64,000 nt of DNA, taken from assembly GCA_031280965.1 (NCBI GenBank), contig JAITFZ010000021.1, positions 1-64,000 of the forward strand, read 5' to 3'. The first letter of the stretch is position 1. Each line of letters opens with the position of its first letter. The position numbers and the translations under genes are program-made. The notes beneath the pieces are model-generated. The model did no database searches. It was not told the origin of the DNA and was given only the letters and a program-made list of their open reading frames with translations. This DNA is from Oscillospiraceae bacterium. Its GTDB lineage: Bacteria; Bacillota; Clostridia; Oscillospirales; Ruminococcaceae. Of the stretch, positions 21,390 to 40,098 are shown piece after piece.

Positions 21390-22829
21390 TTATCCTTTTA
21401 TAATATCTGCAAGCGAATACAGCGAAACATTTTTATTCTTCTCTAACCCTTTCGTAAACCCCGACTTTGAAAACAAGCTGTACATAATCTTTGCAGACTT
21501 CGCCGATGTGTATTTCCCAACTAACTTCTCATAATCGCCCTGCGTGACCTCTGAGCTTCTGAACTTACACTCGCCGAGCAGAATATTCTTTGCCGACTTA
21601 TCTGCCGCCATAATATCAATCTCGGTTTCATAAGACACTCGCTTGGTTTTACCCGCTGTTGTGATTTCGGTGCGGTACGCCTTACCCCACCACCGACCAA
21701 CCTTGCTCGCACGGAACGGCAGTCTGTCCTCACGGTTGAGCTTGCGGACAAATTCCCTGCATATATGTTCAAACACAGGCGCGGCGAATTCGTTCAACTG
21801 CGGACTGACAAAGTGTTTGTACACACCCTGCGAGTCACCTGCTTCTAAGTCCGACAAGTTCGTAAATACGAAAGCAAACCAAAAACGGAAAAAGTTATCA
21901 TTTATGCGGTAAACTCCACGGGAAGACGATGCTTTTTCTTTGTCGCCGGATAGCATGGGAAATTCCCGCTCGACAATTTCAAGCTCGATGAGGTTCTTGA
22001 TATACACGCTGATTTTTGCCTTGTCAATCTGTGTTTTGGTATAGATGTCGTTTAATTGCGTGTTTCCGAGTGCGATTGCTTCAATAATCGTGTTATACAT
22101 CGCCGTTTCACGGAGTTCTTGCCTTAGCAAAAATTCTACCTCGCTGTACAGCACACAGCCTTTTCTAAGTGTGTTCTTAACGATGTTCTCGCCGAGCGAC
22201 AGCTTTTGGTCAAACTGCCTTAGGTAGTGCGGAATCCCGCCTAAAATCGAATACGCAAGGACTTTTTCTTCGTAGGAATAGTTGGGGAAGAATTTAATCG
22301 CATCGTAAAACGGCATTTCGTTCATTTTATAAATCCCTGTAGCCCGCCCGTACAGCGGTTTTTCCTCGGAAAGCAGTTCTTTCTCGATAAAACTCATGGC
22401 ACTACCGCATAAAATTAACATGATGTTTTCGTTTTTGAGCGTTTCGTCCCATAAATTTTGCAAAATCGAGGGAATAGACGGATTTCCCTTGCACATATAC
22501 GGAAATTCGTCGATTATGAGCAGTTTCTTCCCGCCATTGGACGGCAGTTCTGTGATTGAACGGAACGCAGTTTCCCAATCGGCGAACACGTTGACGTACT
22601 TCGCTGCGGGGATTCCCGACGACAACACCCGCTCCGAGAATGTCTTGATTTGTTTTGCATCAGCGACTTCTCGGCATGAGTAGAACACATGGGGCTTGTC
22701 CTCGCAGAATTTGTGGAGTAGCTCGGTTTTTCCGACCCTACGCCGTCCGTAGAGTACGACTAACTGCCCTCCGCTTGCATTATACTTATCCTCGAAGAAT
22801 TGCAATTCATTTTCACGACCTAAAAACAT
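21390..22829 (-). CDS. AAA ATPase with DUF234 nuclease-like C-terminus
   Basis: 479 residues. Walker A VLYGRRRVGKTELL (about residues 25-38), Walker B KKLLIIDEFPYM (about 99-110), sensor LCGSAMSFIE. A winged-helix section follows (TKTQIDKAKISVYIKNLIELEIVERE), then a C-terminal PD-(D/E)XK-like segment E-T-E-I-D-I...LLGECKFR. This is the archaeal-type ATPase/DUF234 architecture (COG1672), widespread in bacteria and of unknown role. A perfect palindrome lies in its leader. It is the outermost gene at the left end of the element, beside the recombinases. Confidence 0.85.
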   Translation of the reverse strand: MFLGRENELQFFEDKYNASGGQLVVLYGRRRVGKTELLHKFCEDKPHVFYSCREVADAKQIKTFSERVLSSGIPAAKYVNVFADWETAFRSITELPSNGGKKLLIIDEFPYMCKGNPSIPSILQNLWDETLKNENIMLILCGSAMSFIEKELLSEEKPLYGRATGIYKMNEMPFYDAIKFFPNYSYEEKVLAYSILGGIPHYLRQFDQKLSLGENIVKNTLRKGCVLYSEVEFLLRQELRETAMYNTIIEAIALGNTQLNDIYTKTQIDKAKISVYIKNLIELEIVEREFPMLSGDKEKASSSRGVYRINDNFFRFWFAFVFTNLSDLEAGDSQGVYKHFVSPQLNEFAAPVFEHICREFVRKLNREDRLPFRASKVGRWWGKAYRTEITTAGKTKRVSYETEIDIMAADKSAKNILLGECKFRSSEVTQGDYEKLVGKYTSAKSAKIMYSLFSKSGFTKGLEKNKNVSLYSLADIIKG

Positions 22830-22951: not shown

Positions 22952-24499
22952 TTATGACACAATTCTGTTTTCATCGACATAATTAAGTATAATTTCAATA
23001 CGGTCGGAGGCAAAAACGTGAATCGAATCTATAAAAGCGTTCACGATTTCTTTGGAAAGTTCTTTTATTTCGAGCCGTTTATTATACTTTTCAATAAAGA
23101 CGTTCTCTTGCATAGATTCTGTTTCTTTTGATTCAAGTTCGGTAATGGTGCCTGCATACGCCAAGATTTGTGCGTTGAGCTTTTCGTTCTTGCCTTGATA
23201 CACTTCCCTCGAAATAGTGCCGATGTGTTGTTTTTCCCATAACGACAGCTTCTCGGATTCAATTTTTGAGATTAGCTTTTGTAGCGTTTTAATCTCGCCG
23301 TGTAAATTTTCAGACGACACAGAGTTTATCTGTGTTTTCTTATTATCGGCAAGCTGTATTTGCTGCCTAATCACAGTCAGCACGGTTTCGACTAAATCGC
23401 TTTCGCTGATACTATCCCTCGTGCAATCCAAACCGTCGATGTTTTTATGAGTAGTGCAACGATATACAACACCGCTTTTCAATTTCGAGCGGGTCAACGC
23501 TCTCCCGCAAGTCCCACAGAAGATTTTACGGTAAAACAGCAAGTTTTCGCCGAGGGGTTTGCTTGAAGAAGAAGTCGTTTTACCGCTCATAATCTCTTGC
23601 ACACGGAAAAACTGCTCATCGGTGATGATTGCGGGGAACGCATCGGGGACGACAATCCATTCATCTTTCGGGGCAGTTCTGGTGGGCATTTTCCGCAGTT
23701 CTATACATTTGAATTTCCCGCAGATGTGCTTTCCGGTGTAGCGTTCGTCTTTGAGAATCCGCTTGATTGCCCCCGATTCCCACATATTAACCTTGCCGTT
23801 TTTACCCCAGTCACGTTTTGCGCCTCTTTCTTTCTGACGTGAGCTTGCGGTCGGAACACCATCTGCGTTCAGCTTTTTCGAGAGTTGCCGAGTAGACAAA
23901 CCCTGCTCGTACAAATTAAAAATAAGCCGAACTGTTTCGGCGGCGGGTTCGTCGATTATGAGCTTGTGGCGATTGGCAGGGTCTTTACTGTACCCGAAGA
24001 AAGCATACGGCGCACAATTCTTACCACTAATGCTAAGTGTTCTTCTCGATGATTTTATTTTTTCAGATAAATCTTGACTGTACATTTCTGCAATGAGATT
24101 ACGGAAAGCTATGTCAATTCCACTTGTTGCACCCTTGTGATTCCCGCTGTCATACACATCGTTAATGCTAATAAATCGGACATTCCAAGCAGGGAAAAGC
24201 TGTTCTAAGTAGTTCCCGACTTCGAGATAATTACGACCGAAACGGGATAAATCCTTTACAACAATACAATGGATTTTCCCACGCTCGGCTAAGTCAAGCA
24301 CTTTTTGAATCCCCGGACGCTCGAAATTCGTGCCTGTCCGTCCGTCGTCAATCGCTTCCATGACCTCACAACCCTCGAATTCGGGCAGCTTCGATATAAA
24401 ATCGTCAAGCAAAGCACGCTGATTACCTATGCTGTCGCTCTCGTGATTATCGCCGTCCTCGTTTGATACACGGAGGTATTTCATTACAATATACTTCAT
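22952..24499 (-). CDS. Large serine recombinase 1
   Basis: 515 residues. The N-terminal resolvase domain has the catalytic Ser in KYLRVSNEDGD and the conserved VKDLSRFGRNYLE. Next come a recombinase domain (FFGYSKD...), a zinc ribbon (FCGTCGRAL...YRCTTHK) and a C-terminal coiled coil (about residues 395-460), as in TnpX/phiC31-type integrases. It is the last of three adjacent recombinase genes, separated from the second by one base. It should catalyse integration or excision, alone or with its neighbours. Confidence 0.93.
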   Translation of the reverse strand: MKYIVMKYLRVSNEDGDNHESDSIGNQRALLDDFISKLPEFEGCEVMEAIDDGRTGTNFERPGIQKVLDLAERGKIHCIVVKDLSRFGRNYLEVGNYLEQLFPAWNVRFISINDVYDSGNHKGATSGIDIAFRNLIAEMYSQDLSEKIKSSRRTLSISGKNCAPYAFFGYSKDPANRHKLIIDEPAAETVRLIFNLYEQGLSTRQLSKKLNADGVPTASSRQKERGAKRDWGKNGKVNMWESGAIKRILKDERYTGKHICGKFKCIELRKMPTRTAPKDEWIVVPDAFPAIITDEQFFRVQEIMSGKTTSSSSKPLGENLLFYRKIFCGTCGRALTRSKLKSGVVYRCTTHKNIDGLDCTRDSISESDLVETVLTVIRQQIQLADNKKTQINSVSSENLHGEIKTLQKLISKIESEKLSLWEKQHIGTISREVYQGKNEKLNAQILAYAGTITELESKETESMQENVFIEKYNKRLEIKELSKEIVNAFIDSIHVFASDRIEIILNYVDENRIVS

Positions 24500-24500
24500 A

Positions 24501-26174
24501 TTAAAAGCCGGACACCTCCGCTAATTTTATGACTTCCTCGTACTCGTCACGGAATTTGAATGTAATCGCTACCTTATTATAATCGCTGATTTCTACCCGC
24601 TCAACCATGGTTTGTGCTAATTCGGCGGTGAGTTCTTGTTCGCCTATGAATTTTGTGAAAGTCGTGAGCCATTTGTTCACCGTGGTTAGGTTCTTCTTAT
24701 ACTTTGCTTTTTCGGACTTTGCAAACTTCAAGCGGGTGTTGAGCCGTTCCGTGTCGGCGGTGTATTTCCCGACGGCGAATTGATATTCTTCTTTTGTGAG
24801 CTGTTTTGTGGCGTATTCTTCATAAATTGCTTGCCGTAGCGACGATATACGGCGTAACTCCCGCTCAATTGATTCAATCTCCGCTTCATAACCCGATAAT
24901 CTGGACTTTTGGCTATTCTCACGGTTAATTTTCTTTTGAACCTCACGGATATTTGCAAACTTCTGTATTTCAATGCGAATAGCCATGTAAACGGCATCAT
25001 ACAAGTCTTTTTCATGAATGTACTTATGGGAGCAAGTCATAAGCTCATTGTGTGTCGGGCATTGATACGTCCGGTAAACCCTATTATAACGGCTGTCTAC
25101 TTTCTTATACCTTATAAGTAACTTCCCGCAATCGGCACAGAATAGGAGGTCTTTCAACAACAAGTCCGGCTTGTTGTCGAGGTCTGCATATTTTCCTCTA
25201 TTGTCTTTGGACTGTACCGAACGTGTTTCTATTATTGCGTTTGCACGGTCGAATAAATCTTGTGAAACAATCGGTTCGTGGGTATTATACACGATTGGAA
25301 TAATTTCTTTACTGCTCCCTCCCTCAAACAACGCACCATTCTCTCGCCCTTGAACCATGTGACCGAGATAGACCTGCGAAGTCAGAATCCGCTTAATAAT
25401 CTTGCTTGTCCATTCGTTATCGGCGTAATTCTGAGATTTGACAATACCTTTCAAGAGCCTGTATTTATTCGGCGGCGGGATTCTCATTTCGTTCAAGCGA
25501 CGGCATATTTGAGCGTTACCAACTCCGTCGGCTTTCCATTCATACATTTGAACAACAATCGGGGCGGTTTCGTGGTCGATGACGAGCTTATTTTTATTAT
25601 TCGGGTCTTTCAGATAACCGTACTTAGCATAAGAACCGATGAACGCTCCCTGTTTCTGTTTCATACGCAGAGCTGCACTCGACTTTCGGGAAATATCCTT
25701 TGCGTAAATATCGTTTATAAGGTTTTTAAGGTTCGTTGCGATTCGCTCATTACTTGAAAGGTTAAGACTGTCATAGTTATCATTGATGGCAATTAGACGA
25801 ACACCGAGAAACGGCAGAATTTTTTCAAGATATTCGCCTGTTTCGATGTAGTTTCTGCCGAGCCTTGAAAGGTCTTTTATTATAATGCAATTAACTTTTC
25901 CCGACTTACATTTCCGTATAAGCTCATTCCATGCGGGTCGAGCGAAGTCAACACCCGATTCGCCGTTGTCGGTGAATACATCTTTTAATATAAGGTCGGG
26001 GCGTTCGGCGATATACCGCTCTAACATTTCACGCTGATTATAAATTGATTCTGATTCTTTTTTACCGCTATCCAATACTGAAAGGCGAACGTAAATCGCC
26101 GTGTTGTATGTTGCGGGAACGACTTCGGGAGCGATTTTAGCAAGGACTTCCGGCTTTCGACTAACTCGTGCCAT
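24501..26174 (-). CDS. Large serine recombinase 2
   Basis: 557 residues. An N-terminal extension of about 25 residues precedes the catalytic domain (AIYVRLSVLDSG with catalytic Ser; IIKDLSRLGRNYIE). Recombinase domain YGYLKDPNNKNKLVIDHE, zinc ribbon LFCADCGKLL...YQCPTHN, and a long coiled coil. Its start overlaps the stop of recombinase 3 by one base. It is clearly diverged from the other two, so this is not a recent tandem duplication. Confidence 0.93.
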   Translation of the reverse strand: MARVSRKPEVLAKIAPEVVPATYNTAIYVRLSVLDSGKKESESIYNQREMLERYIAERPDLILKDVFTDNGESGVDFARPAWNELIRKCKSGKVNCIIIKDLSRLGRNYIETGEYLEKILPFLGVRLIAINDNYDSLNLSSNERIATNLKNLINDIYAKDISRKSSAALRMKQKQGAFIGSYAKYGYLKDPNNKNKLVIDHETAPIVVQMYEWKADGVGNAQICRRLNEMRIPPPNKYRLLKGIVKSQNYADNEWTSKIIKRILTSQVYLGHMVQGRENGALFEGGSSKEIIPIVYNTHEPIVSQDLFDRANAIIETRSVQSKDNRGKYADLDNKPDLLLKDLLFCADCGKLLIRYKKVDSRYNRVYRTYQCPTHNELMTCSHKYIHEKDLYDAVYMAIRIEIQKFANIREVQKKINRENSQKSRLSGYEAEIESIERELRRISSLRQAIYEEYATKQLTKEEYQFAVGKYTADTERLNTRLKFAKSEKAKYKKNLTTVNKWLTTFTKFIGEQELTAELAQTMVERVEISDYNKVAITFKFRDEYEEVIKLAEVSGF

Positions 26175-27805
26175 TACGCCACCCCTTGTACTGCATTTAA
26201 TAAACTTTCAAACTCATTCTGATAACGGAAAACTATTTCAATTCTGTTCTTCTCAAACACTTTCACACTGTCGATTAACTCAGCGACTATACGGCGTTCA
26301 AGGGTTTCGGCATTACAGACTGCCTTAAACCGCTCAATCCAGTTTTGATTTGGTTCGGCAGAATGGCTTGATTTGATTTGTGCGATTTCTTCTCGGAGCA
26401 GTTTTTCTGCAGTCCCCGCTTCGGCGATTTTAACGTCATAACTCGCTTTGAAATTATTAAAATCATCTTTTGAAATAACACCCTCCTTGAAATTTTCATA
26501 GAGCGATAAACGGAAATCCTCGTACTTTTTTATTTCGTCTTGTTTAGCTTCAAGCCGTGCGGTCAGCTTATTTATATTGCTTTGAACATACACGGAAGTA
26601 TCTGCATAAGCGTACTCTTTTTCTATATCCAAGACTGCCACCGTGTGACAGCGTAAAGCGTTCAGCACGGCATCTTCACACGCAGTAAACGAAATTATAT
26701 GCGTGGTGCAAACACTAATGTCAGCGCGGTGCCGAGAACATACATAATAGGGGTATTTCTTCCCGTTTTTTGTATTAGTTTTCCGTGCCATTGATGCACC
26801 GCAGTCCCCGCAGATAATTACACCCGATAACGGAAAAACCGCCGTGCCTTTCTTGACCGCACGGGTGTCTTGTTTCAAAAGTCTTTGCACGGTATTAAAG
26901 ATTTCATGCTCGATGATTGCCTCATGTGCGTTTTCGTGTCGTATCCACTCTTCTTTCGGGACATCTACGCTCTCACGGACTTTATAATTCGGTTTTGTAG
27001 TTTTCCCCTGCTCTAATACCCCAGTGTAGACCGCGTTTTTTAATACTCTTAAAATCATTGTTGCTGCCCATTTAGAATTTTTATAGACTTTAAGTGACGT
27101 GCTGAGATTTAAACCGATACTTTTTTTATAATCCAACGGCGAAAGCACACCCGCTTTGTTCAGTTTGTCGGCTATGCTGTCGGCGTTTAGTCCTTCAAGT
27201 TTCCATCTAAAAATATCACGTACTACTTCTGCGGCGAAATCGTCAACAATGAGTTTATTTTTGTTATTTGGGTCTTTTATATAACCGTAGACGGCGAAAC
27301 TGCCTATGAAATCGCCTTTTTTCATTTTCGCTCCAAACGCCGAGCGGATTTTCATACTGATGTCAGCACAATAGGCATCATTTACCATGTTCTTAAAAGG
27401 CACGATTATATTATTCATATAACCCTGTACTTTTGTGCTGTCATAAAAATCGTTCACGGCGATGAACCGAATACCAGTGCGAGGGAAAATCACTTGTATA
27501 TATTTCCCCGCTTCAATGTAATTCCTACCGAACCTCGAAAAATCCTTAACGATTACGCAATTAACTATACCCGTATTTATATCGTTCATCATCTCGATAA
27601 ATGCGGGTCGGTTGAAATCAACACCGGAATAACCATCATCAATACGAATTTTATTTATGGTTATATCGGGTATTGACTTCAAAAAGTCTAATATTAGCGC
27701 ACGTTGGTTTCCTATGCTGTCGCTTTCTTCCTTATCGCCGTCCTCGTTTGACAGACGCAAGTATATATCGGCAATGTATTGTTTGTTTTCATTTAATTTG
27801 GACAT
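26174..27805 (-). CDS. Large serine recombinase 3
   Basis: 543 residues. Catalytic Ser in IYLRLSNEDGD, VKDFSRFGRNYIE, recombinase domain YGYIKDPNNKNKLIVDD, zinc ribbon ICGDCGASM...YVCSRHR and a C-terminal coiled coil. It is the first gene of the recombinase run, with the ribosome site TAGGAGGGC. The YGYIKDPNNKNKL block is nearly the same as in recombinase 2, marking these two as the closer pair. Confidence 0.93.
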   Translation of the reverse strand: MSKLNENKQYIADIYLRLSNEDGDKEESDSIGNQRALILDFLKSIPDITINKIRIDDGYSGVDFNRPAFIEMMNDINTGIVNCVIVKDFSRFGRNYIEAGKYIQVIFPRTGIRFIAVNDFYDSTKVQGYMNNIIVPFKNMVNDAYCADISMKIRSAFGAKMKKGDFIGSFAVYGYIKDPNNKNKLIVDDFAAEVVRDIFRWKLEGLNADSIADKLNKAGVLSPLDYKKSIGLNLSTSLKVYKNSKWAATMILRVLKNAVYTGVLEQGKTTKPNYKVRESVDVPKEEWIRHENAHEAIIEHEIFNTVQRLLKQDTRAVKKGTAVFPLSGVIICGDCGASMARKTNTKNGKKYPYYVCSRHRADISVCTTHIISFTACEDAVLNALRCHTVAVLDIEKEYAYADTSVYVQSNINKLTARLEAKQDEIKKYEDFRLSLYENFKEGVISKDDFNNFKASYDVKIAEAGTAEKLLREEIAQIKSSHSAEPNQNWIERFKAVCNAETLERRIVAELIDSVKVFEKNRIEIVFRYQNEFESLLNAVQGVA

Positions 27806-28898: not shown

Positions 28899-31800
28899 TT
28901 ATTTTTTATATGTTAATCTGCGTTTTTCAAATTGTTTAGCTCCAAAAATGAAACAATCATTATAATTTGAATTCTCAACAGATGTAATTGCAGAAATATA
29001 ATCATTATAAAGCCATCTGCTATTATGATAACTGAAATGGGGGGTTTTTAATAACGAGACATATTTCTTTAAAATAGGAGTTATTTTTTGATTATATATT
29101 TTTGCTTGATTAAAATCATTTTTTGCTTTACATTTTATTAACCACGTTCTATAACTTGAAATATAAGTAATAATTCTATGCAAAGCACGTTCTAAATGAA
29201 ACATCGAAGAATTTTTCTCTCCCGGGAAATGATATATAATTTCAGATTCGTGAATTTGCTCTTTTTCCAATCCCATTCTGCTAAACATTATGTCCTCAAT
29301 TTTACTTAATTTTTGCAAACCGTCCTCAAAACTTTCATAAACAGAGTTTAATAGCTCTTCAAATTTAAAGGTTGCAGAGTTTAAATCACTTGGCAGGAGA
29401 TTTGCTTCGCAAAATAGAGGTTTTGAAGAATTCAAAAAGCGCATAGAAAAAAACTCAAAGTGAGAGCAGATAAGATTTACATAAGCTCTCCCTGCACAAG
29501 TAATTGCAATTTTATGATTTTTTGGCTTTCCTTTTGTATTTTCATTTAAGCAATTGTTTGCTGTATCGAGAATTGCTTTTTTACTAACGAGTTCACCTTC
29601 CTCTAATTGGAGGGAGTCAAATGTAATTAGATGTCCCCATGTTTCCGAGTTTTTTAAATCGTACATTCCCCATAAAGCGTCAGTTATTAACTCAATAGTC
29701 TTTTCTCTTGATTCCCCAAATACTTTCTCGAATTTGCTTACTAATTGGGAAAATAAAACCATTCCTTCTGAATTGCCTTCAAGTTTACCAAAATGTTTAG
29801 GCATATGTTTAAATAGATAGAATAAAATGAGTCTAAATTTTGAATAATTTTCCGAAACACTATCTCCAAATGTTAAACCCAATTTTCCAAAATAACCATA
29901 AGTCCCATAATGCTTGTTGTTCTTGAAACTATCAAAAATTAATCTGTAAATGATTCCTCTCGCACCGTATTTAATACTGTCAAGAATATCGAATGGGAAA
30001 CTGTCTTTCTCTATTTTTTCAAGAATGTCTGTATATTCCATTAATATATCTTTATTATCTGGATTAGAGCATACTTCGCAAAGGCATTTTACAAAACGAA
30101 TATAATCGTTGTTAAAAATACCGACTAAATTATAATTGGCATATGGGTCGTCAATGATGTTTTTTATGAATTTAATGCTTCTTTCTGTTCTTGGAATAAT
30201 CTTAAAAGAATCTATTGTAGATAAAACGTAATCACATTTTTTATTTAAAACTACACTCTTATCAATATCAGTTGATATGTCGTGATTGTCAGAAAAAAAG
30301 TTAAATATTCCTTTGAAATGGTCGCAAGTGACATTTGCAGTTGTGTCCCTCAAAAAGAATATACAACAATAATTCTCGTGAAAATTAAAGTCTGAAAAAT
30401 CGTCGTGTTGCGCAATCACCGACATGATTTTCTCCATGTCAGTGATAAAGACATGATAATTGTCTATAAACATTTTGGTTGTAGTCGGATTGTCAATTGC
30501 ATCCATGTTGTCAAATATATAAATAATTTTATCTATATCTTCACGATTTGACATTTTTATAATATCTAAGAGAAGAATTATAATAAGAAGATTCTGTGTG
30601 TTGTAATCATCAAGATGACTACATAATAATTCATCGAAAATTCCGTTATTTGCTTTAAATTTAGAAACACAAAAATTCATAAATTTTTTTGCTACATCGT
30701 TAATGTTGAACTCAACATTACTGTTTAAAATGTCATTTATGCTTATAATTTTATTATAGGTATAATCATAATTATATGGTTCAGTATTAGATATTGTTTT
30801 TCGCATTATATTTCTTATAACGTGAATTAATTTGTTCTCAATTGGACGCGGGCTGTCTAAATTCATATTTGTTTCAAAATTTAAATAGAAACACATTCCT
30901 GTTAAATCTGAATTTAATTCGTCTATGCACCTATTAAAGTAATCATGTTTCCCGACTTTACTCAATGTTAGCTTGTCGACATCGTTAAAGTATTCTTCAA
31001 ACTCGCGAATTGTTTCATTTACAAATTCTGTATAATATAATTCATCTGCTTTCAAATGTGAATTATACCTTTTAAAAAATTCATCTTTGCTTATACGAGG
31101 AATTACTCTCTTGTTTTCTGCAATTTGTCTTATAAAATTAGCAAATGTAGTCTTTCCGCTACCACGGAAACCTGTAAAAAAAATCGAATTCTTGTTTTGG
31201 CTCTTTAAAACTTTACATATTGAACAAATTCTTTTATAAGTCAAAATACTTACAACATGAAATCTTGCGAAGAACAAATCGTCGGTAATTGTTTTGCTAA
31301 AATTTTTATTCGCTAAATGGTCGGGAAAAGGATTGCAAATTAAAAACATATCTAATTCATTTTTTCTTAGAATATCAATTAATTCGTCTTCCGATAAATA
31401 ATTCTTTGCGTTAGTGTTTTTAATCTCCCCTAATTCATCTAATTCTAATTCGGGAAATTTAGCAGGGAATAAATGACTCAAAATGTTTGTCGGAATATCA
31501 TCGCATTCAGAAATTGAACAAATACAATTTTGAACATTTCCAAAATCAATTAATAGCCCATTGTCCCTTAAAATTCTCAATAACACCTCGTTTTTTTGAA
31601 AGAGTTTTCTTAAATATTCAGTAAAATTTTCTTTATACTGAGAATAGTCATCTTCACTCAATAAAATATTAATTAATATTTTATTGTCTGCCATTACTAC
31701 TTTTGTTTGCGAATGTAAATACCAATATAATTTATTCTCGTCTTTATGATAAAATTCAAATATTGCATCCTTTCTAACTCTTTTACCATCAATATCGAGT

Positions 31801-32432
31801 TCATCGCCTAAACGTAAAATAGCAGCTAAAAGTCTAACTCTGACACGCTCCCCGGTTTTAGGAAAATCCATACAATCTTCAATATTTAGTTTTGAGTGAT
31901 ACTGGCATATCGTACACACTATATTTAATTCATCCGCTTCTATTTCTCTTATTGCATGATGCAATGAAGAGTCTTTAAGATTTTTGTATGCTTCCAGTAA
32001 AAAAGTTGCTGTAATAAAATGATGGTGTTTTCTAAGTTCCTTCATGTTAGTAGGGGTCAATTCTAAATCGCTTTGAAAGTTTGATTCAAAGATTATATTA
32101 TGCTTTTTCTCACAATTTTGTTTTACGGAAGGATACATTTTAAAGTCGCATTGCATACCTATATCGTGGAAAAGAACAGAAAGAATTAGCAAGTACAGTT
32201 CTTTCTGACTTAGAATACAATTATTGTTTTTCAAGAATCCCGGAAGTTCTAATATTTTATCAAGAACACGAATAGAATGGTCTCTTCCGTGGTCGGTATA
32301 TTGTCTGATTAATGTGTCGCCATCCCACAAGTGATATAAAAATTCTTCGCATTTTAATATAATTTGCTTTTGTTTTTCGTTTAAAAAAACGAATAAATCA
32401 TTATTGTTTTGTAATTTAGTTATGACTTCCAT
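28899..32432 (-). CDS. HD-domain / P-loop NTPase fusion, candidate defence protein
   Basis: About 1177 residues from ATG 32432 (GGAG nine bases upstream; an ATG at 32447 has no ribosome site). Numbering here is from 32447. Residues about 45-225 form an HD phosphohydrolase-like domain: DHGRDHS (52-58), LFHDIGM (92-98), RKHHHF (139-144), CQYHSK (181-186), LRLGDELDI (211-219), like the HD-CE type linked to nucleotide-signalling systems. A P-loop TGFRGSGKTT lies at about 425-434 and Walker B IIYIFDNMDAI at about 641-651. The remaining roughly 500 residues are helical, without recognised domains. The layout (effector, NTPase, large sensor-like tail) is that of STAND defence proteins. It is notably AT-rich and lies in an operon behind an XRE regulator. 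The function is inferred. Confidence 0.75.
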   Translation of the reverse strand: MEVITKLQNNNDLFVFLNEKQKQIILKCEEFLYHLWDGDTLIRQYTDHGRDHSIRVLDKILELPGFLKNNNCILSQKELYLLILSVLFHDIGMQCDFKMYPSVKQNCEKKHNIIFESNFQSDLELTPTNMKELRKHHHFITATFLLEAYKNLKDSSLHHAIREIEADELNIVCTICQYHSKLNIEDCMDFPKTGERVRVRLLAAILRLGDELDIDGKRVRKDAIFEFYHKDENKLYWYLHSQTKVVMADNKILINILLSEDDYSQYKENFTEYLRKLFQKNEVLLRILRDNGLLIDFGNVQNCICSISECDDIPTNILSHLFPAKFPELELDELGEIKNTNAKNYLSEDELIDILRKNELDMFLICNPFPDHLANKNFSKTITDDLFFARFHVVSILTYKRICSICKVLKSQNKNSIFFTGFRGSGKTTFANFIRQIAENKRVIPRISKDEFFKRYNSHLKADELYYTEFVNETIREFEEYFNDVDKLTLSKVGKHDYFNRCIDELNSDLTGMCFYLNFETNMNLDSPRPIENKLIHVIRNIMRKTISNTEPYNYDYTYNKIISINDILNSNVEFNINDVAKKFMNFCVSKFKANNGIFDELLCSHLDDYNTQNLLIIILLLDIIKMSNREDIDKIIYIFDNMDAIDNPTTTKMFIDNYHVFITDMEKIMSVIAQHDDFSDFNFHENYCCIFFLRDTTANVTCDHFKGIFNFFSDNHDISTDIDKSVVLNKKCDYVLSTIDSFKIIPRTERSIKFIKNIIDDPYANYNLVGIFNNDYIRFVKCLCEVCSNPDNKDILMEYTDILEKIEKDSFPFDILDSIKYGARGIIYRLIFDSFKNNKHYGTYGYFGKLGLTFGDSVSENYSKFRLILFYLFKHMPKHFGKLEGNSEGMVLFSQLVSKFEKVFGESREKTIELITDALWGMYDLKNSETWGHLITFDSLQLEEGELVSKKAILDTANNCLNENTKGKPKNHKIAITCAGRAYVNLICSHFEFFSMRFLNSSKPLFCEANLLPSDLNSATFKFEELLNSVYESFEDGLQKLSKIEDIMFSRMGLEKEQIHESEIIYHFPGEKNSSMFHLERALHRIITYISSYRTWLIKCKAKNDFNQAKIYNQKITPILKKYVSLLKTPHFSYHNSRWLYNDYISAITSVENSNYNDCFIFGAKQFEKRRLTYKK

Positions 32433-32489
32433 GTGATTTTTCTCCATTTCAAAATATTTTAGTTTAACTCATATCTTATACTCGTCATA

Positions 32490-32801
32490 CTATCCCTGCG
32501 ATTCCAAATACTTAAAATAATCCAAAGCAGAATCCCTCTGCTTCTCGTTCAAGTTCCGATACCGCACTACAAGCGACAGTTCATCGTTCGTCAAAGCATT
32601 ACCCAAGTCAACGCTATACAGGAAGTCTAACGAAACACCGATTGCACGAGCGATGTCAATCACTTTTGCGGTTTCCGGCACATACTTCCCTAAAATATAT
32701 CCGCTCAACGTAGACACGGGAATATCTAATTTGGCTGCAAGTTCGACTTGTGACATTTTCTTCAAGGAGAGAGCCTGCTTGATTCTATTCCCTAATTCCA
32801 T
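32490..32801 (-). CDS. XRE-family regulator of the HD-NTPase
   Basis: 103 residues from ATG 32801, with GGGGGTGA just upstream (a GTG at 32810 would lie within the ribosome site). The helix-turn-helix is MSQVELAAKLDIPVSTLSGYILGKYVPE, followed by IDIARAIGVSLDFLYSVD and a C-terminal helix. Its gene precedes the HD-NTPase gene by 57 bases on the same strand, so it probably controls it. Repeats of TTGTCGAA flank its promoter region. Confidence 0.85.
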   Translation of the reverse strand: MELGNRIKQALSLKKMSQVELAAKLDIPVSTLSGYILGKYVPETAKVIDIARAIGVSLDFLYSVDLGNALTNDELSLVVRYRNLNEKQRDSALDYFKYLESQG

Positions 32802-32817
32802 CTTACTCACCCCCGAT

Positions 32818-32914
32818 TTGTCGAACCGTGTCGATTCATAATACCTTCTTGTCGAAACATAGTGGTATTTTCGCCGTAATTCCTCTTGACAATTACGGCG
32901 AAATGGTTCATAAT
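32818..32914. promoter_or_regulatory. Divergent control region, XRE/HD-NTPase and SLOG gene
   Basis: Left part: two copies of TTGTCGAA (32818-32825, 32849-32856) with a related TGTCGATT between them. Right part: TTGACA (32886-32891), 17 bases, CATAAT (32909-32914) drives the SLOG gene. The -35 sits inside the inverted repeat TTTCGCCGTAATT (32869-32881) / AATTACGGCGAAA (32891-32903). Confidence 0.7.
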
Positions 32915-32968: not shown

Positions 32969-33469
32969 ATGCTAAATTTAATGTATTATTGTACTATCGG
33001 AGGCAGTACGGTCTGGGAACTTCCATACGGTCAAAACGAATCTCATCCCGACTGCGTAGCACTCAAACTTGCTCTGTTAGAGCGGATTTCAGAACTTTGC
33101 AATAAGGGCTTGACCGACTTTGTGGTGAATTGCGAGTACGGTATACCCATGTGGGCTGCGGAGGCTATTGTGGCGATTCGAGGTTTTCGAGAGAACCCTC
33201 CCCGGTTACATATCCTCGCTCCCCATGAAAACCAAGCCGTGAAATGGCACGATGACGTTCACGAACGCTATTATAACCTACACGCTACCGCCGATTCGGT
33301 AACTGTGCTGCGAACACAGTATACCGATGACTGTTACCAAGAAGCTGACCGTTTTATGCTCAATCATAGTGTTATGCTTCTGACAGACGGCGGCAACGAG
33401 GGATTGACAGAGTATGCCAAATCCAAGAACAAGTACATTGAGCAGGTTTCAATCACAACTCTCCGATAA
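32969..33469 (+). CDS. SLOG-family protein (YpsA/DUF1273-like)
   Basis: 166 residues from ATG 32969, preceded by AAGGGG. A Rossmann-like fold begins MYYCTIGGSTVWELPYG, followed by KGLTDFVVNCEYGIPMWAAEAIVAIR, LHILAPHENQAVKW, and a final HSVMLLTDGGNEGLTEYAKSKNKYIEQV. This matches the SLOG (YpsA/DprA-like nucleotide or ligand-binding) layout. Such proteins are frequent cargo in Clostridia mobile elements and are proposed to sense nucleotide-derived ligands. It diverges from the XRE/HD-NTPase operon. Confidence 0.7.
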   Translation: MLNLMYYCTIGGSTVWELPYGQNESHPDCVALKLALLERISELCNKGLTDFVVNCEYGIPMWAAEAIVAIRGFRENPPRLHILAPHENQAVKWHDDVHERYYNLHATADSVTVLRTQYTDDCYQEADRFMLNHSVMLLTDGGNEGLTEYAKSKNKYIEQVSITTLR

Positions 33470-34431: not shown

Positions 34432-34509
34432 CAGTTAAAATTAACACTATAATATAACCAAGGGCGGGGGAATCCCGCCCATACTCTTTAAGAAGGGGGG
34501 GTGCTTAGA

Positions 34510-35028
34510 ATGAAAATGAGCAATGCTCATCGTGATTTCGTCGATAAAATTTATCGAGGAGAATATTTAGATATTGTCAGAAACACAATAAAATTTGTAG
34601 CTCGCAATATCGACACGAACGACTTGAAAGACTGCGTTAGCGAAGTTTATATGATAGCGATGCAGAAACATGACATTGATAAGCACCCTAATATCAAGGG
34701 TTGGCTGACAGAAACTGCAAAGAACATAGCCAAAGATTATAAGAAAAGACAGGGAATCCAAATGAATAGACGAGCACCCTCATTTGAGGAGTCCGTTGAC
34801 CCTGTAAGTCCCGAAGAACTCATCGAAAAACAGGAATCGGACGAAGAATTTCTCGATTTCTTGGAAGAAAAGCTGAAGCCGCAAGAGTTCGCTCTCTACA
34901 AATTAAAATTCAAACAGCACCGAACGAACGAGGAAATAGCGGAGAAAATAGGCATAAAAAAACATTCTGTTGATGTAAAAATAACTCGGCTGAACAAGAA
35001 ATTAAGAAATATTTTAGAAAAACCCTAA
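34510..35028 (+). CDS. ECF-type RNA polymerase sigma factor
   Basis: 172 residues from ATG 34510, with AAGGGGGGG nine bases upstream. The sigma-2 region reads DIVRNTIKFVARNIDTNDLKDCVSEVYMIAMQK...IKGWLTETAKNIAKDYKKRQ. The sigma-4 helix-turn-helix reads LKFKQHRTNEEIAEKIGIKKHSVDVKITRLNKKLR. It directs RNA polymerase to special promoters. It is followed by an anti-sigma-like membrane protein gene after 91 bases. Confidence 0.88.
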   Translation: MKMSNAHRDFVDKIYRGEYLDIVRNTIKFVARNIDTNDLKDCVSEVYMIAMQKHDIDKHPNIKGWLTETAKNIAKDYKKRQGIQMNRRAPSFEESVDPVSPEELIEKQESDEEFLDFLEEKLKPQEFALYKLKFKQHRTNEEIAEKIGIKKHSVDVKITRLNKKLRNILEKP

Positions 35029-35119
35029 AAAGTGTAGAATTATTGCCCCTAAAAACCATATATAAGTAAGCGGATAAATAATCTGCACCGAAAAATATTC
35101 AAGAAGGAGGTGAATATCA

Positions 35120-36022
35120 ATGCAAGGCAAGTATAACAATCTGACAGCGTTAGAATTGCGAGAAATGTTCTTGGATAACACGTTAGATACGGACTTAATG
35201 GAACAAGATGATTTTGAAAAGCTGTTCGGCTACGAAATCGAACTTGGCGAACCGAGTGCCGATGTGATTTCCTTTTGTTCAAACGGTTTAAACGAATATG
35301 AATATTACGGCAAAGATATTCAAATGCCTCCTTTGAGCGACATTTACAAAGAACTTGAACGCAGAACTCGCCGAAACCGTGGCAGGGCTTTCGCAAAAGT
35401 GACACAAGTGGCAGCTTCGATTGTATTAGTCATCGCACTAACCGCATTGTTAGCACAGGGAGTTGCAATGGCATTAGGGTTTGACCTATTCGGGTATATA
35501 TTTAATTGGTTTAGACCCGATACGGTCGAAATCACAAATATGGAGCAACAGCCTGATGGTTCGTTTGATTCACCACACCTCAATGCCACCACAACCGACA
35601 CCGACCCCGCCGAGCCAGACGATGGCACGGAAATCGAAGATGAGTTTGTTTTCTTAGACTTCGAGCGGATTGAAGATATTGACGATGAGTGGTTGAGTAG
35701 AGTATCGCCATGGTTGGTGGAGCGGTATGAGTTTAGTAGTGGGGATTATATAAGTTTCTTTGGAGAGCAGAAGTTTGAAATATATTTCTTAGACGAAAAC
35801 AACGACTTCATCTCGTTACTTATTCAAAATTTATCTATGCACTACGCAGAGATAGACGATGAAAAACTTGTAGAAAAAATAACGGTAAACGGCATAACGT
35901 TCAAAGTATTCAATAATATGGAAGATTTTCAGGTCGTTTGGGAGTTTGGTGAACATCTATATAGATTGAACACATTTTTGCCGATTGAAACGATGAAAGA
36001 GATTATACGGAATTATTATTAG
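35120..36022 (+). CDS. Anti-sigma factor-like membrane protein (DUF4367-like)
   Basis: 300 residues, AAGGAGGTG ribosome site. An N-terminal cytoplasmic part of about 93 residues is followed by one membrane helix (VAASIVLVIALTALLAQGVAMA), an acidic Pro/Thr linker, and an extracellular domain ending VNGITFKVFNNMEDFQVVWEFGEHLYRL, as in DUF4367 proteins. Together with the preceding sigma gene it fits a membrane anti-sigma that releases the sigma factor on an external cue. Confidence 0.75.
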   Translation: MQGKYNNLTALELREMFLDNTLDTDLMEQDDFEKLFGYEIELGEPSADVISFCSNGLNEYEYYGKDIQMPPLSDIYKELERRTRRNRGRAFAKVTQVAASIVLVIALTALLAQGVAMALGFDLFGYIFNWFRPDTVEITNMEQQPDGSFDSPHLNATTTDTDPAEPDDGTEIEDEFVFLDFERIEDIDDEWLSRVSPWLVERYEFSSGDYISFFGEQKFEIYFLDENNDFISLLIQNLSMHYAEIDDEKLVEKITVNGITFKVFNNMEDFQVVWEFGEHLYRLNTFLPIETMKEIIRNYY

Positions 36023-36100
36023 AAAGAGGAAGTTGATATTTCTCGCTCTCTTGTTGATTTTTGGAGTGGGGTTTAGTATAATATGTGGAGGAATAAAAGT

Positions 36101-36934
36101 ATGGATTATTACAAAGACCGAATTGGATATTGCCCTGTGCAAGACAAAAATTATAAAATCAAAGTGAGATTTTGCGGCATCAATACGATGGGAGCTCCAT
36201 CGACACAGTATAAACCTATTTTAGATTATTGTGAGTATGCAATAGAGAATAAAGGTTGCTCTGAACGTCCGTGTCCGATACTTAAAAATGTAAAATTCCA
36301 AGATGATGAACCACAAGGAGTCAATATTATGTTTAAAAAATTGCCTAAAGAGTGTCATGAACTATTAAAGACATTAGTTAATTCAAAAAGTGCAGTCGGC
36401 ACGGCGAGTGAATTATTTGACAATCTTTCTTCCCAAGAAGACGAGAGATTGCGTGGTAAATTCCGCAGATTAAAAGAAGAAGGATATATTGATACGGTTT
36501 GGGCAGATAATATTCCTTATAAAATTATCTTTCAGAATAAGGCATATACATACGAGGAAGATGAAGCAGAATACGAACGTCACTTTTCTTCTGCTGTTAA
36601 TAACACGACCAATATTAATGCAACAAATGTACAAATGCAACAAAATACTATCGGTTCATCTCAAAATATGAGCATAGAACAGTTTGTTGATTTTGATAAA
36701 GCATTAGAGATTTTTAATCATGTTGTTCAGAACATCGACAACTTTAATTTATCAAACACAGATAAAGATAAACTTGTTGAAACCGTAACACAAGCTATAT
36801 CGAAAGCAAAATCAAAAGAAGATGGTGAATTTATACAAAACGCTCTTTCAATTGTTCGTAATTTTCTTGTTGGTGTGTCGGGAAATTTAGCGGCTGCCGG
36901 TATATTACACATGATAACACAAATATTCTCTTAG
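36101..36934 (+). CDS. Unrecognised Cys-rich / winged-helix-like protein
   Basis: 277 residues from ATG 36101 (GGAGG upstream; the ATG at 36083 has none). The N-terminal 65 residues have a Cys pattern (GYCPVQDK...DYCEYA...[10 protein letters not shown]) suggesting a small metal site seen in other Clostridia hypotheticals. The middle ([16 protein letters not shown]...[16 protein letters not shown]) looks like a winged helix. A polar stretch [20 protein letters not shown] leads to a helical C-terminus with a hydrophobic end ([20 protein letters not shown]). Such N/Q-rich linkers occur in some abortive-infection proteins. Function unknown. Confidence 0.55.
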
Positions 36935-37222: not shown

Positions 37223-38053
37223 TTACGATAAAAGCCGCACTCCCATGAAAATGTTATCATCAGTTGTAATTTCCCGCTGCCTTGAATTTTTCTTTTCAGT
37301 TTTGTAATCCCCCGTAAAATGTCTACCTTTTTGAGTAATATATAGAGCCGTAAAATCACACCCTACCCCCTCAGTCATAAAAGAAAACTCATTAAAACCC
37401 GCTATACGATAGATATTATCAACGAATACACCTTTAATCCGGCGAACGGTCTTTTTCAATAATTCGCACTTCACCAAACCACCGATGAGCCGCACAACTT
37501 CCGACCGCTGACCCTTGTTAAACCCCATTTTCTCGCATAAATCGCTGTAACTATTCCACGATTTCTCGTACTCGAAGTGCCGTGATTTACACATAAATAT
37601 ATACATTACAAACATTTTCGCTGATACCCCGGTGTAACGGAAGATACAGCGAGGTACGAAGAAGTAACCGCTCCCCGGTAACGATTGAAGATGATATACG
37701 GTTGTTTTATACTTCATGCCGTTTCTTTCGATTATAACATTCTTGGTTAAACCGCATGAATACAGACGGAACACACTCGCCGACACAGTTTTCTCGGTAA
37801 TTCCGCACATAATTGCTAATCGCTTCTGACCGACCCGAACACCGTCAAATTCCCGCCGTAGACTGCACAAAGCGGAATACACCGCAACATCAACCGCCGA
37901 AATTTCTCTCCGACGGTACCGCTCCATGACCTCGTTAGACATAACAAAGTAACTCAATCTGCCACGTTTCTTAAATTTGTGAGAGAACCGACGGTCACGC
38001 CGATTCTCCCCGCAAAACGAATAAATATAATTGCTTGATAAAATAGTTCTCAT
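37223..38053 (-). CDS. Helix-turn-helix protein, possibly replication-related
   Basis: 276 residues. A basic N-terminus (ENRRDRRFSHKFKKRGR) precedes a winged-helix region (ISAVDVAVYSALCSLRREFDGVRVGQKRLAIMCGITEKTVSASVFRLYSCGL) like that of plasmid RepA_N or element HTH proteins. A second helix-turn-helix-like segment is SYSDLCEKMGFNKGQRSEVVRLIGGLV. Its start overlaps the relaxase stop by ATGA. It may assist replication or control of the excised element. Confidence 0.6.
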   Translation of the reverse strand: MRTILSSNYIYSFCGENRRDRRFSHKFKKRGRLSYFVMSNEVMERYRRREISAVDVAVYSALCSLRREFDGVRVGQKRLAIMCGITEKTVSASVFRLYSCGLTKNVIIERNGMKYKTTVYHLQSLPGSGYFFVPRCIFRYTGVSAKMFVMYIFMCKSRHFEYEKSWNSYSDLCEKMGFNKGQRSEVVRLIGGLVKCELLKKTVRRIKGVFVDNIYRIAGFNEFSFMTEGVGCDFTALYITQKGRHFTGDYKTEKKNSRQREITTDDNIFMGVRLLS

Positions 38054-40038
38054 TTCTTTCTCCCTGTATAAATTGTCTGAGCCGGTTTTTCCGGTTCTTT
38101 TGGTTGCGTTTTAGGCGATTCTGTGAGTTTTACTCGATGTTCTTTTGTAGCTTCTTTTATAATCTTATCCACACGCTTTAATTCGCCCGAACCTGCATCT
38201 GCCGATTTCAAGCCGTTTTTGAGTAAATCTGACTGTCGCCGATGCTTTTCTGCTTCAACCAACGAATTTACATAAGTAGTCGCCATGACTTTATCTATAA
38301 CGACGAGCATTTCGGAGGTTTTTCTGCGATTTATGCGTTCTTCATCCAACAAACTTTTTAATTCAAAGATTTCGGCTTCATCATCAGCTATAAGTTTAGT
38401 GATTCTCTTATAACTTGTTATAGTTATTTCATGCTTATCTAAAAGGTCTATATCAGCTTGATTTACCCCACCTTGTTCAAAATAACGAACACCCGCGTTA
38501 TACAAATCTCTGAACAAGTTTAGTTCCACTTTCAGCTTATTGAATTTATCTTCAATTTCGGGTATGGATTTATTAAACCGCTCTAAATCGTTATGCAAAT
38601 CAGTAATGGTTGCACCGGCATTGAGTTTTCTATTCAATTCCGAAAGCCGGTCAAGTTGCTCGCAATTCTCCCAACTAAACGGTTTACCCTTTCTGATTTT
38701 GTGCATAGGTAATAAACCCTTTACAAAAACAACAGTGTACTGTCTGATAGTTTTTCGGGTAATGCCTTCAAGAGAATCCTTGTTTTTGAGCGCATGGTAT
38801 TTACTCAAATTGTCGTTCTCAAATTTATATTTGTCAAATAGCCTGTTGCGAATCGCCTGTTCAGAGTATTCCTCACCGAGCGACTTCAACCGAATATACT
38901 GACTACTATGCTTCGGCAAAAAGGAGATATATTTTCCGTGTTTGATTTTATAGTCTGAATCGCTTAACTTCCGCAAAACTTCATTAAAATCTTTCGATTG
39001 TAAAACGAACATATCAATCTTATCCCGTAAATCATCACGGAAAGATGTCGAAGGTGATTTGAACGTCTTTTCAATCTTACGGATTTCCTTGACGTAACAC
39101 TCTTTCGCTTCAAGTCCGTTGTCCGTTTCGCGAAACGGGATTTGCAATCGTTCAAGTTCCGCAACCATAAACGACTGTTTATTTCGGTCGCTAAAATAAA
39201 ATGATTTATAAGGTGAGTGTTCACGAGCTGTCGCTTTTTCTTTCTCGATTTCGAGCAGAGAATTCTCCCGCTTCAACCTATCGACGTTCTCGGCGTTGAT
39301 TTCATTTCTCGGAACACCGATTTGCATAAGCTCACGCAGTCGCTTGGCGTCCTGTGATTCTTTATAATCCGGCACAGACTGGTGAGCGTAGTCAGCATCT
39401 TTAATATCTCGCTTGAAATTATAACGGCGTAATAATTCCTCCATCTCTGCTTTCTCGCTCTCTTGCCATAAATATAATTGATTCTGTGTTTGGCTCTTTG
39501 GCTTGAACCCCTGCTCGATTAGTGCAGCTTTCATCGACACACCTTTCGACAAGCCGTTCTTCCGACCCTCTGTATAGAACGGAATAAAGTTGATGTGGAG
39601 GTGAGGACTCGCTTCGTCCATGTGTAAATTTCCGGAAAATATGTGCAGATTTTTATTCCTCGCCTTGAACCCCCGCATATAATCGTCGAGCATCTTTTTC
39701 GCAATTTCGCCGTTCTCGCTCCCGACCCCCGCCGTTTTCATGTCGCCGAATTGAATCACTAATTCATAGAAGGCTTCCTCACGGCTACCCTCAAAAATAT
39801 GTTCGTAATAATCGTGAATCCGCCGACACGGTTGTTTCTGTTTCGCATTATACGCATCCAACGCATCGCCGAAAAGCTCGTCATACGCTTCCCGCACATC
39901 TTGGTTTGCATAAATAATGTTGTCCTTGATTCTGGTCACGTCAACATTATCGGCGAAAAATTCCCGATTATTATGTTCGAGGTTCGCGCTCCCAGTGCTG
40001 ACTTTTCCGAGCGTAAAGCTCATACTTAATGCACTCAT
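38050..40038 (-). CDS. MobV-family relaxase (Pre/Mob)
   Basis: 662 residues from ATG 40038, placed by GAAGGAGA. It starts MSALSMSFTLGKVSTGSANLEHNNR, the MobV motif I (H near LEHNNR). Motif III is HMDEASPHLHINFIPF with the metal-binding histidines. A long coiled-coil C-terminus follows. It should nick an oriT and pilot the DNA strand to a helper conjugation system. At 662 residues it is longer than the roughly 400-500 of plasmid MobV proteins. Confidence 0.92.
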   Translation of the reverse strand: MSALSMSFTLGKVSTGSANLEHNNREFFADNVDVTRIKDNIIYANQDVREAYDELFGDALDAYNAKQKQPCRRIHDYYEHIFEGSREEAFYELVIQFGDMKTAGVGSENGEIAKKMLDDYMRGFKARNKNLHIFSGNLHMDEASPHLHINFIPFYTEGRKNGLSKGVSMKAALIEQGFKPKSQTQNQLYLWQESEKAEMEELLRRYNFKRDIKDADYAHQSVPDYKESQDAKRLRELMQIGVPRNEINAENVDRLKRENSLLEIEKEKATAREHSPYKSFYFSDRNKQSFMVAELERLQIPFRETDNGLEAKECYVKEIRKIEKTFKSPSTSFRDDLRDKIDMFVLQSKDFNEVLRKLSDSDYKIKHGKYISFLPKHSSQYIRLKSLGEEYSEQAIRNRLFDKYKFENDNLSKYHALKNKDSLEGITRKTIRQYTVVFVKGLLPMHKIRKGKPFSWENCEQLDRLSELNRKLNAGATITDLHNDLERFNKSIPEIEDKFNKLKVELNLFRDLYNAGVRYFEQGGVNQADIDLLDKHEITITSYKRITKLIADDEAEIFELKSLLDEERINRRKTSEMLVVIDKVMATTYVNSLVEAEKHRRQSDLLKNGLKSADAGSGELKRVDKIIKEATKEHRVKLTESPKTQPKEPEKPAQTIYTGRKK

Positions 40039-40098
40039 GCCTGTATCTCCTTCCATTTTTCATAAATTTTCGTGCAGAGGGGATAATATGACCCAAAA

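Follow-up and report, generated by a model that had tools for sequence, protein, structure and literature searches.

Our analysis covered a window of 64,000 nt (contig JAITFZ010000021.1, positions 1 to 64,000 of the forward strand, assembly GCA_031280965.1) from an Oscillospiraceae bacterium, and concerned a gene for a large HD-CE/P-loop nucleoside triphosphatase (NTPase) protein, a candidate immune receptor carried by a mobilizable element. The gene occupies positions 28899–32447 on the minus strand, as an intact open reading frame (ORF) with no interruption. Translation from the first ATG gives 1182 codons, and a second ATG at 32432, with GGAG 9 nt before it, gives 1177 aa, the choice of start being a reading of the sequence. 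The protein has an N-terminal HD-CE domain (residues 48–255; 31683–32306, minus strand), then a P-loop NTPase and then a long C-terminal part without a known domain, and a Pfam scan of the protein found no family above cut-off past residue 255. The initial annotation, which had described approximately 1177 residues with an N-terminal HD domain, central Walker A and B motifs and a long unrecognized tail, was borne out. Kyte–Doolittle averages over 19-residue windows never rise above 1.4 and self-comparison found no internal repeats, which argues for a protein that is likely to be soluble and non-repeat. A match to RNA 2'-phosphotransferase at about residues 872–936 (17.9 bits in NCBIfam, where the cut-off is 231, at E 0.0017; E 0.17 in the PDB) was taken as chance, and Pfam matches to zeta-toxin, kinase and helicase families covered the P-loop side only and fell below cut-off.

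The HD-CE family (PF24391) was assigned with an E value of 6.6e-26 and 92 bits, against a curated cut-off of 27. The domain has H53, H57, H94, D95, R139, H142, H184 and D215, and its metal-site residues are intact. Across 26 aligned HD-CE domains T51, H53, H57, S90, R139, H142, H184, D215, L217 and D218 were found to be invariant (26/26). The stretch H94–M98 (HDIGM) is likewise invariant in 26/26 rows, although 24 of these came from a search that demanded those letters, the independent rows being the window's own domain and L002; one relative found by profile, outside the alignment, has HDMGM (L009). The order T-x-H-x3-H, then HD, then H, H and D is that of the two-metal phosphodiesterases, whereas H-HD-D is that of deoxynucleoside triphosphate hydrolases (dNTPases). 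Phosphodiesterase chemistry is favoured because the residue pattern resembles the former and not the latter, and the domain is regarded as a putative metal-dependent phosphohydrolase.

Relatives were collected by scanning the genomes of 84,980 species for S[AVI][YLF][FL]HDIGM, which would miss relatives with other letters there, and 88 were obtained by tblastn, of which 80 were kept. Among the loci retrieved there was one full-length homologue, from a Treponema metagenome-assembled genome (MAG; locus L010), with 43–46% identity, and the whole architecture is conserved in this second phylum. Both the Walker A and the Walker B motif expected of STAND proteins were read from the sequence and are conserved in the Treponema protein: GFRGSGKT at residues 426–433 (31149–31172, minus strand) and, about 210 residues beyond it, the Walker B-like IIYIFDNMDAID at residues 641–652 (30492–30527, minus strand), with IIYIFDNMD at 641–649 and DNMDAID at 646–652. 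Identity between the two proteins is 47% in HD-CE, 61% around Walker A (386–460), 36% over 461–635, 50% over 636–705 and 55% over 816–1010. Residues 816–1110 (29118–30002, minus strand) form a conserved C-terminal part, with no Pfam family above cut-off, that is a possible sensor. A winged helix after the NTPase is possible by eye, without a profile match, and C-terminal superstructure-forming repeats were seen neither as Pfam repeats nor as self-matches, although diverged repeats could escape sequence comparison. The Treponema gene is AT-rich (28% guanine + cytosine (GC), locus 32%), and within 8 kb of it lie genes for an Mrr-type nuclease, an EcoRI-type methylase beside a GmrSD_N/HNH gene, RelB and DUF3990, together with IS66/IS110 genes.

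The family was further resolved by a tree of 78 HD-CE rows, from which six duplicate or fragmentary rows and another two lacking the HD expression had been removed. By motif, the ATPase following HD-CE is Hsp90-like in 51 rows, P-loop in 14 and other in 13, and the P-loop side is split from the Hsp90 side with 97/77 support, the Hsp90 label requiring 3 changes on the tree, where shuffled labels need 22.7 on average. With 100/99 support, the window's HD domain groups with seven others, those of L002, L010, L011, L012, L013, L014 and L016. Pfam scans of eight P-loop proteins (the Treponema protein included) found HD-CE in 8/8; above cut-off it was followed by NACHT in L011 and by NB-ARC in L012, L031 and L040, and by a P-loop without a STAND family above cut-off in L010, L013, L021 and L022. 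The recurrence of HD joined to an NTPase, as proposed in the initial annotation, is upheld by these NACHT and NB-ARC proteins and by the HD tree. L016 (7498–8390) encodes an HD-CE protein of 297 aa that ends at the contig end of a Clostridiales MAG; it branches with the window and Treponema proteins (99/89) at 27% identity, on a long branch of unsure placement, and may be a third family member. Separately, the HD-CE domain of L034 (7974–8780) matches positions 699–882 of the PADLOC RT_UG24 model (E 2.4e-16), L018 and L011 doing so more weakly. HD-CE may thus occur on a reverse transcriptase of the defence type as well, a link that comes from the model by itself because an RT_UG24 search of 178 genomes of another phylum found none, the scan giving no signal in any genome. 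The PADLOC CARF7-HD model matches HD-CE relatives weakly, and neither this model nor RT_UG24 matches the window protein.

The distribution of the protein was found to be sparse. In genome samples that partly overlap, the whole protein was present in 2/398 genomes of the phylum (its own, plus G108, which has an HD fragment where a contig ends) and 1/391 of the class (its own), and the ATPase/tail profile was present in 1/295 genomes of the host's order (its own) and 1/198 of the Treponema phylum (that of L010). The HD-CE family is itself sporadic, at 6/199 phylum genomes and 0/14 control genomes. No tblastn match to the HD-CE/NTPase protein was found in plasmids and phages, nor one to the L010 protein in plasmids; viral contigs gave no match, and a first contig scan of genomes using the protein sequence alone also gave none. 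Six plasmid records were matched by the L034 HD domain and none by that of L011. A core metabolic gene was rejected on these samples, in which the protein is a near-singleton in phylum, class and order, and a core metabolic role is unlikely because the ATPase/tail profile found only its own genome among the 295 of the order. Homologues residing mainly in core genomes, which the initial annotation had named as evidence against its proposal, were therefore not what was seen, the order (1/295) and class (1/391) samples each returning the gene's own genome.

The gene lies on a mobilizable element of about 21.5 kb (21320–42849), delimited by a split AGCS symporter gene. The two halves of that gene stop at approximately 21320 and 42849, 21.5 kb apart, and can be aligned with intact relatives as far as the same residues, in comparison with three same-genus genomes (L093–L095) of seven other matching genomes; this demonstrates an integrated element. 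The insertion is mid-gene, between codons of a conserved FS|NEAGLG stretch. By Pfam the element encodes three tandem large serine recombinases (22952–27805, minus strand), a Mob_Pre-type relaxase (38050–40056, minus strand), a Toprim protein, a ParB_N protein and a TnpV-like gene, and the HD-CE/NTPase gene sits in an AT-rich patch between the recombinase and relaxase genes. The AT-rich cargo of an integrated element that had been described at the outset was accordingly confirmed, at a GC content of 0.29 and with both element edges in the split symporter gene. At the borders of the AT-rich patch, a comparison for repeats gave only short, AT-rich partial matches, and Rfam gave nothing at the gathering threshold in 20000–44000. 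Elsewhere on the element, a gene at 36083–36934 (plus strand, 34% GC) encodes a 283 aa protein whose C-terminal 107 residues match PADLOC AbiTi (E 1.1e-20), and by this match it is a second defence-like cargo gene. An ATPase_2/DUF234 protein at the element edge (21390–22829, minus strand) matches the PADLOC candidate PDC-S27 (E 2.9e-54). At 34501–36022 (plus strand), a gene resembling a sigma factor, with sigma-70 regions 2 and 4 scoring slightly below cut-off, is followed by a DUF4367 protein, and the two are possibly a sigma/anti-sigma pair.

Two small genes adjoin the HD-CE/NTPase gene. An XRE-type helix–turn–helix regulator (32490–32810, minus strand; HTH_3 E 4.6e-12) lies directly upstream on the same strand and ends 42 nt from it, and the two probably share a transcript. 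A YspA-type SLOG gene (PF06908, E 6.3e-19) is divergent, at 32969–33469 on the plus strand, its ORF being open from 32828 and the ATG at 32969 assigned by reading. GC content is 0.29 in the HD-CE/NTPase gene, 0.44 in the XRE and SLOG genes and 0.40–0.44 in the three recombinase genes. The XRE and SLOG positions given in the initial annotation were thus recovered, but the implied roles, with XRE as a dedicated partner (considered below) and SLOG as a linked gene, were not supported: no evidence of a functional link between the HD-CE/NTPase gene and the SLOG gene was found.

Our preferred reading, to which we give a probability of roughly 0.45, is that the protein is a single-protein immune receptor of the effector–NTPase–sensor type, borne as cargo by the mobilizable element. 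The C-terminal part would sense a product of an invading phage or plasmid, or something that the invader alters, upon which the P-loop NTPase would switch or oligomerize and so release or assemble the N-terminal HD-CE domain; this would then hydrolyse a nucleotide, cyclic nucleotide or nucleic acid, and growth or replication would stop. An HD effector and a tail sensor in a STAND-type receptor had been suggested from the outset, and of that suggestion the domain order, the recurrence of HD with NTPases and the mobile cargo setting held, whereas a STAND family profile and repeats were not recovered. In favour of the receptor are the presence of HD-CE on NACHT and NB-ARC proteins, some of which branch with the window's HD domain, the intact metal-site and Walker residues, the restriction genes close to the Treponema copy, the predominance of phosphodiesterases among the PDB sequences listed for the HD profile (seven of nine), and the rarity and mobile setting of the gene. 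We favour the view that the protein works like a STAND receptor, and claim no membership of that class for it.

Several results weigh against this receptor. No PADLOC 2.0.0 model matches the protein at E≤1. Compared with NACHT, NB-ARC and nSTAND profiles, the ATPase and tail gave only sub-cut-off P-loop matches in Pfam, and profile comparison (hhalign) gave probabilities of 33.8% for NB-ARC and 17.8% for NACHT, with only the P-loop side aligned. The tail is among the parts better conserved with the Treponema protein, unlike a fast-evolving sensor, and no single PDB match to the HD profile is significant. The majority of the retrieved HD-CE relatives (51/78) have an Hsp90-like ATPase instead of a P-loop. 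XRE as a dedicated or conserved partner is also unsupported: its composition differs from that of the HD-CE/NTPase gene, it found nothing at E≤1e-15 when the 290 other sampled genomes of the class were searched, viral contigs yielded a single relative (L100, 38% identical), and no XRE gene adjoins the homologue at the Treponema locus. Because of this element-like composition, the few relatives and the lack of an adjacent copy in Treponema, XRE more likely belongs to the surroundings in which the cargo came to lie. The neighbourhood evidence for defence, finally, is mixed and weak. The nearest ORFs of 22 HD-CE loci were listed, and 125 of 134 scanned (nine dropped: eight at locus ends and one that overlapped an insertion sequence gene); the loci include L023, which is Hsp90-type by motif, and omit the non-Hsp90-motif loci L030, L037, L049, L062, L064 and L065. 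The control was 125 ORFs drawn at random out of 224, from 38 stretches (40 asked for) of 21 of the relatives' genomes. At E≤1e-30 the neighbours matched 71 PADLOC models and the control 37, counts that stem from few genes, as one gene matches many models. Among the 25 matches listed for each set, neighbours included JetA–D of Wadjet, DpdF, PsyrT, Orf5, two mad3, PDC-S02 and PDC-S13, and the control, too, contained defence genes, with Cas5c, Cas7b/c, SspH, RT_UG29, PDC-M11A and PDC-S05. At L020 (10016–16663), four ORFs of 488, 196, 1136 and 401 aa after an HD-CE P-loop gene fit JetA–D of Wadjet, a JetABCD operon being inferred from their size and order.

The same receptor could be armed differently, with an HD domain that hydrolyses dNTPs as a triphosphohydrolase and so deprives the invader of nucleotides, in the manner of the dGTPase and Clover systems, and HD dGTPases are proven anti-phage effectors according to PMC12265719. 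The entry 2o6i ('HD domain protein') is second among the PDB matches listed for the HD profile (E 0.081). However, seven of the nine sequences among those matches are phosphodiesterases, the best being a cone cGMP phosphodiesterase (E 0.02), and this, like the further invariant histidines H53, H142 and H184 of HD-CE, which are typical of two-metal phosphodiesterases, is not statistically decisive; we regard a dNTPase effector as unlikely. A regulatory or stress-signalling protein that plays no part in defence, its HD-CE domain turning over a nucleotide messenger while controlled by the NTPase, appears less probable again. HD phosphodiesterases are frequent in signalling, and HD-CE is common on Hsp90-like ATPases (51/78 tree rows by motif), for which no described role was found; yet the sporadic, mobile and, in our samples, near-singleton distribution speaks against it. 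Lowest of all we place service to the element itself, through exclusion of competing elements, stabilization or control of its own transfer. Such service would agree with a gene inside the element, beside a regulator and between recombinase and relaxase genes, but its GC content is far below that of the element genes, and no relaxase or serine recombinase was found among the proteins scanned at the Treponema locus.

Beyond the single-protein immune receptor preferred here, we tentatively suggest, as an idea that is more doubtful than the receptor itself, that HD-CE is an effector cassette common to bacterial and archaeal immune receptors (NACHT, NB-ARC, Hsp90-like and perhaps reverse-transcriptase scaffolds). 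The window protein would then be the first of a new receptor family, spread among gut bacteria by mobile elements, whose HD effector, of phosphodiesterase type, is governed by an NTPase of no known class together with a sensor that is conserved and free of repeats. If true, an uncharacterized enzyme domain joins the effectors of NLR-like receptors, and a single effector would seem to pass between switches of P-loop and Hsp90-like type; were it phosphodiesterase-like, the question of which nucleotide or nucleic acid is destroyed in infection would be directly testable. HD-CE is already a named Pfam family, and PADLOC 2.0.0 is without a model for the window protein. No account of HD-CE as an effector was found in listings of open-licence papers or in passages of PMC8195603 and PMC12265719. 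The term HD-CE is used in 12 papers, none of which has a title on this domain, and the HD terms looked for are absent from PMC7159879, PMC12839542 and PMC13092281.

Compared with known systems, the protein shares an N-terminal HD domain with Clover CloA and the anti-phage dGTPases, as described in PMC12265719, CloA there being an HD domain with a C-terminal helical bundle, restrained by the CloB nucleotidyltransferase. The window protein differs from Clover in its fused P-loop NTPase, and no nucleotidyltransferase family, which Clover would require next to the HD gene, was found in Pfam scans of 17 other window proteins. Tn4451-type mobilizable transposons carry large serine recombinase, TnpV-like and Mob_Pre genes, a gene set that the window element shares, although it differs in having three tandem recombinases and ParB_N and Toprim genes. 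STAND/NLR-like bacterial receptors such as Avs and bNACHT likewise place the effector first, then the NTPase and then a C-terminal part, but the window protein matches no STAND family above cut-off. Proteins with HD-CE and an Hsp90-like ATPase also begin with HD-CE followed by an ATPase (by motif reading), but this is Hsp90-like instead of P-loop, and their HD domains lie across the 97/77-supported split. Proteins joining HD-CE to NACHT or NB-ARC (PF24391 with PF05729 or PF00931) differ in that the window NTPase is below the NACHT and NB-ARC cut-offs and its tail is without TPR or pentapeptide repeats, but, like the window protein, they begin with an HD-CE domain that has these invariant residues and continue with a P-loop NTPase and an extended C-terminal part.

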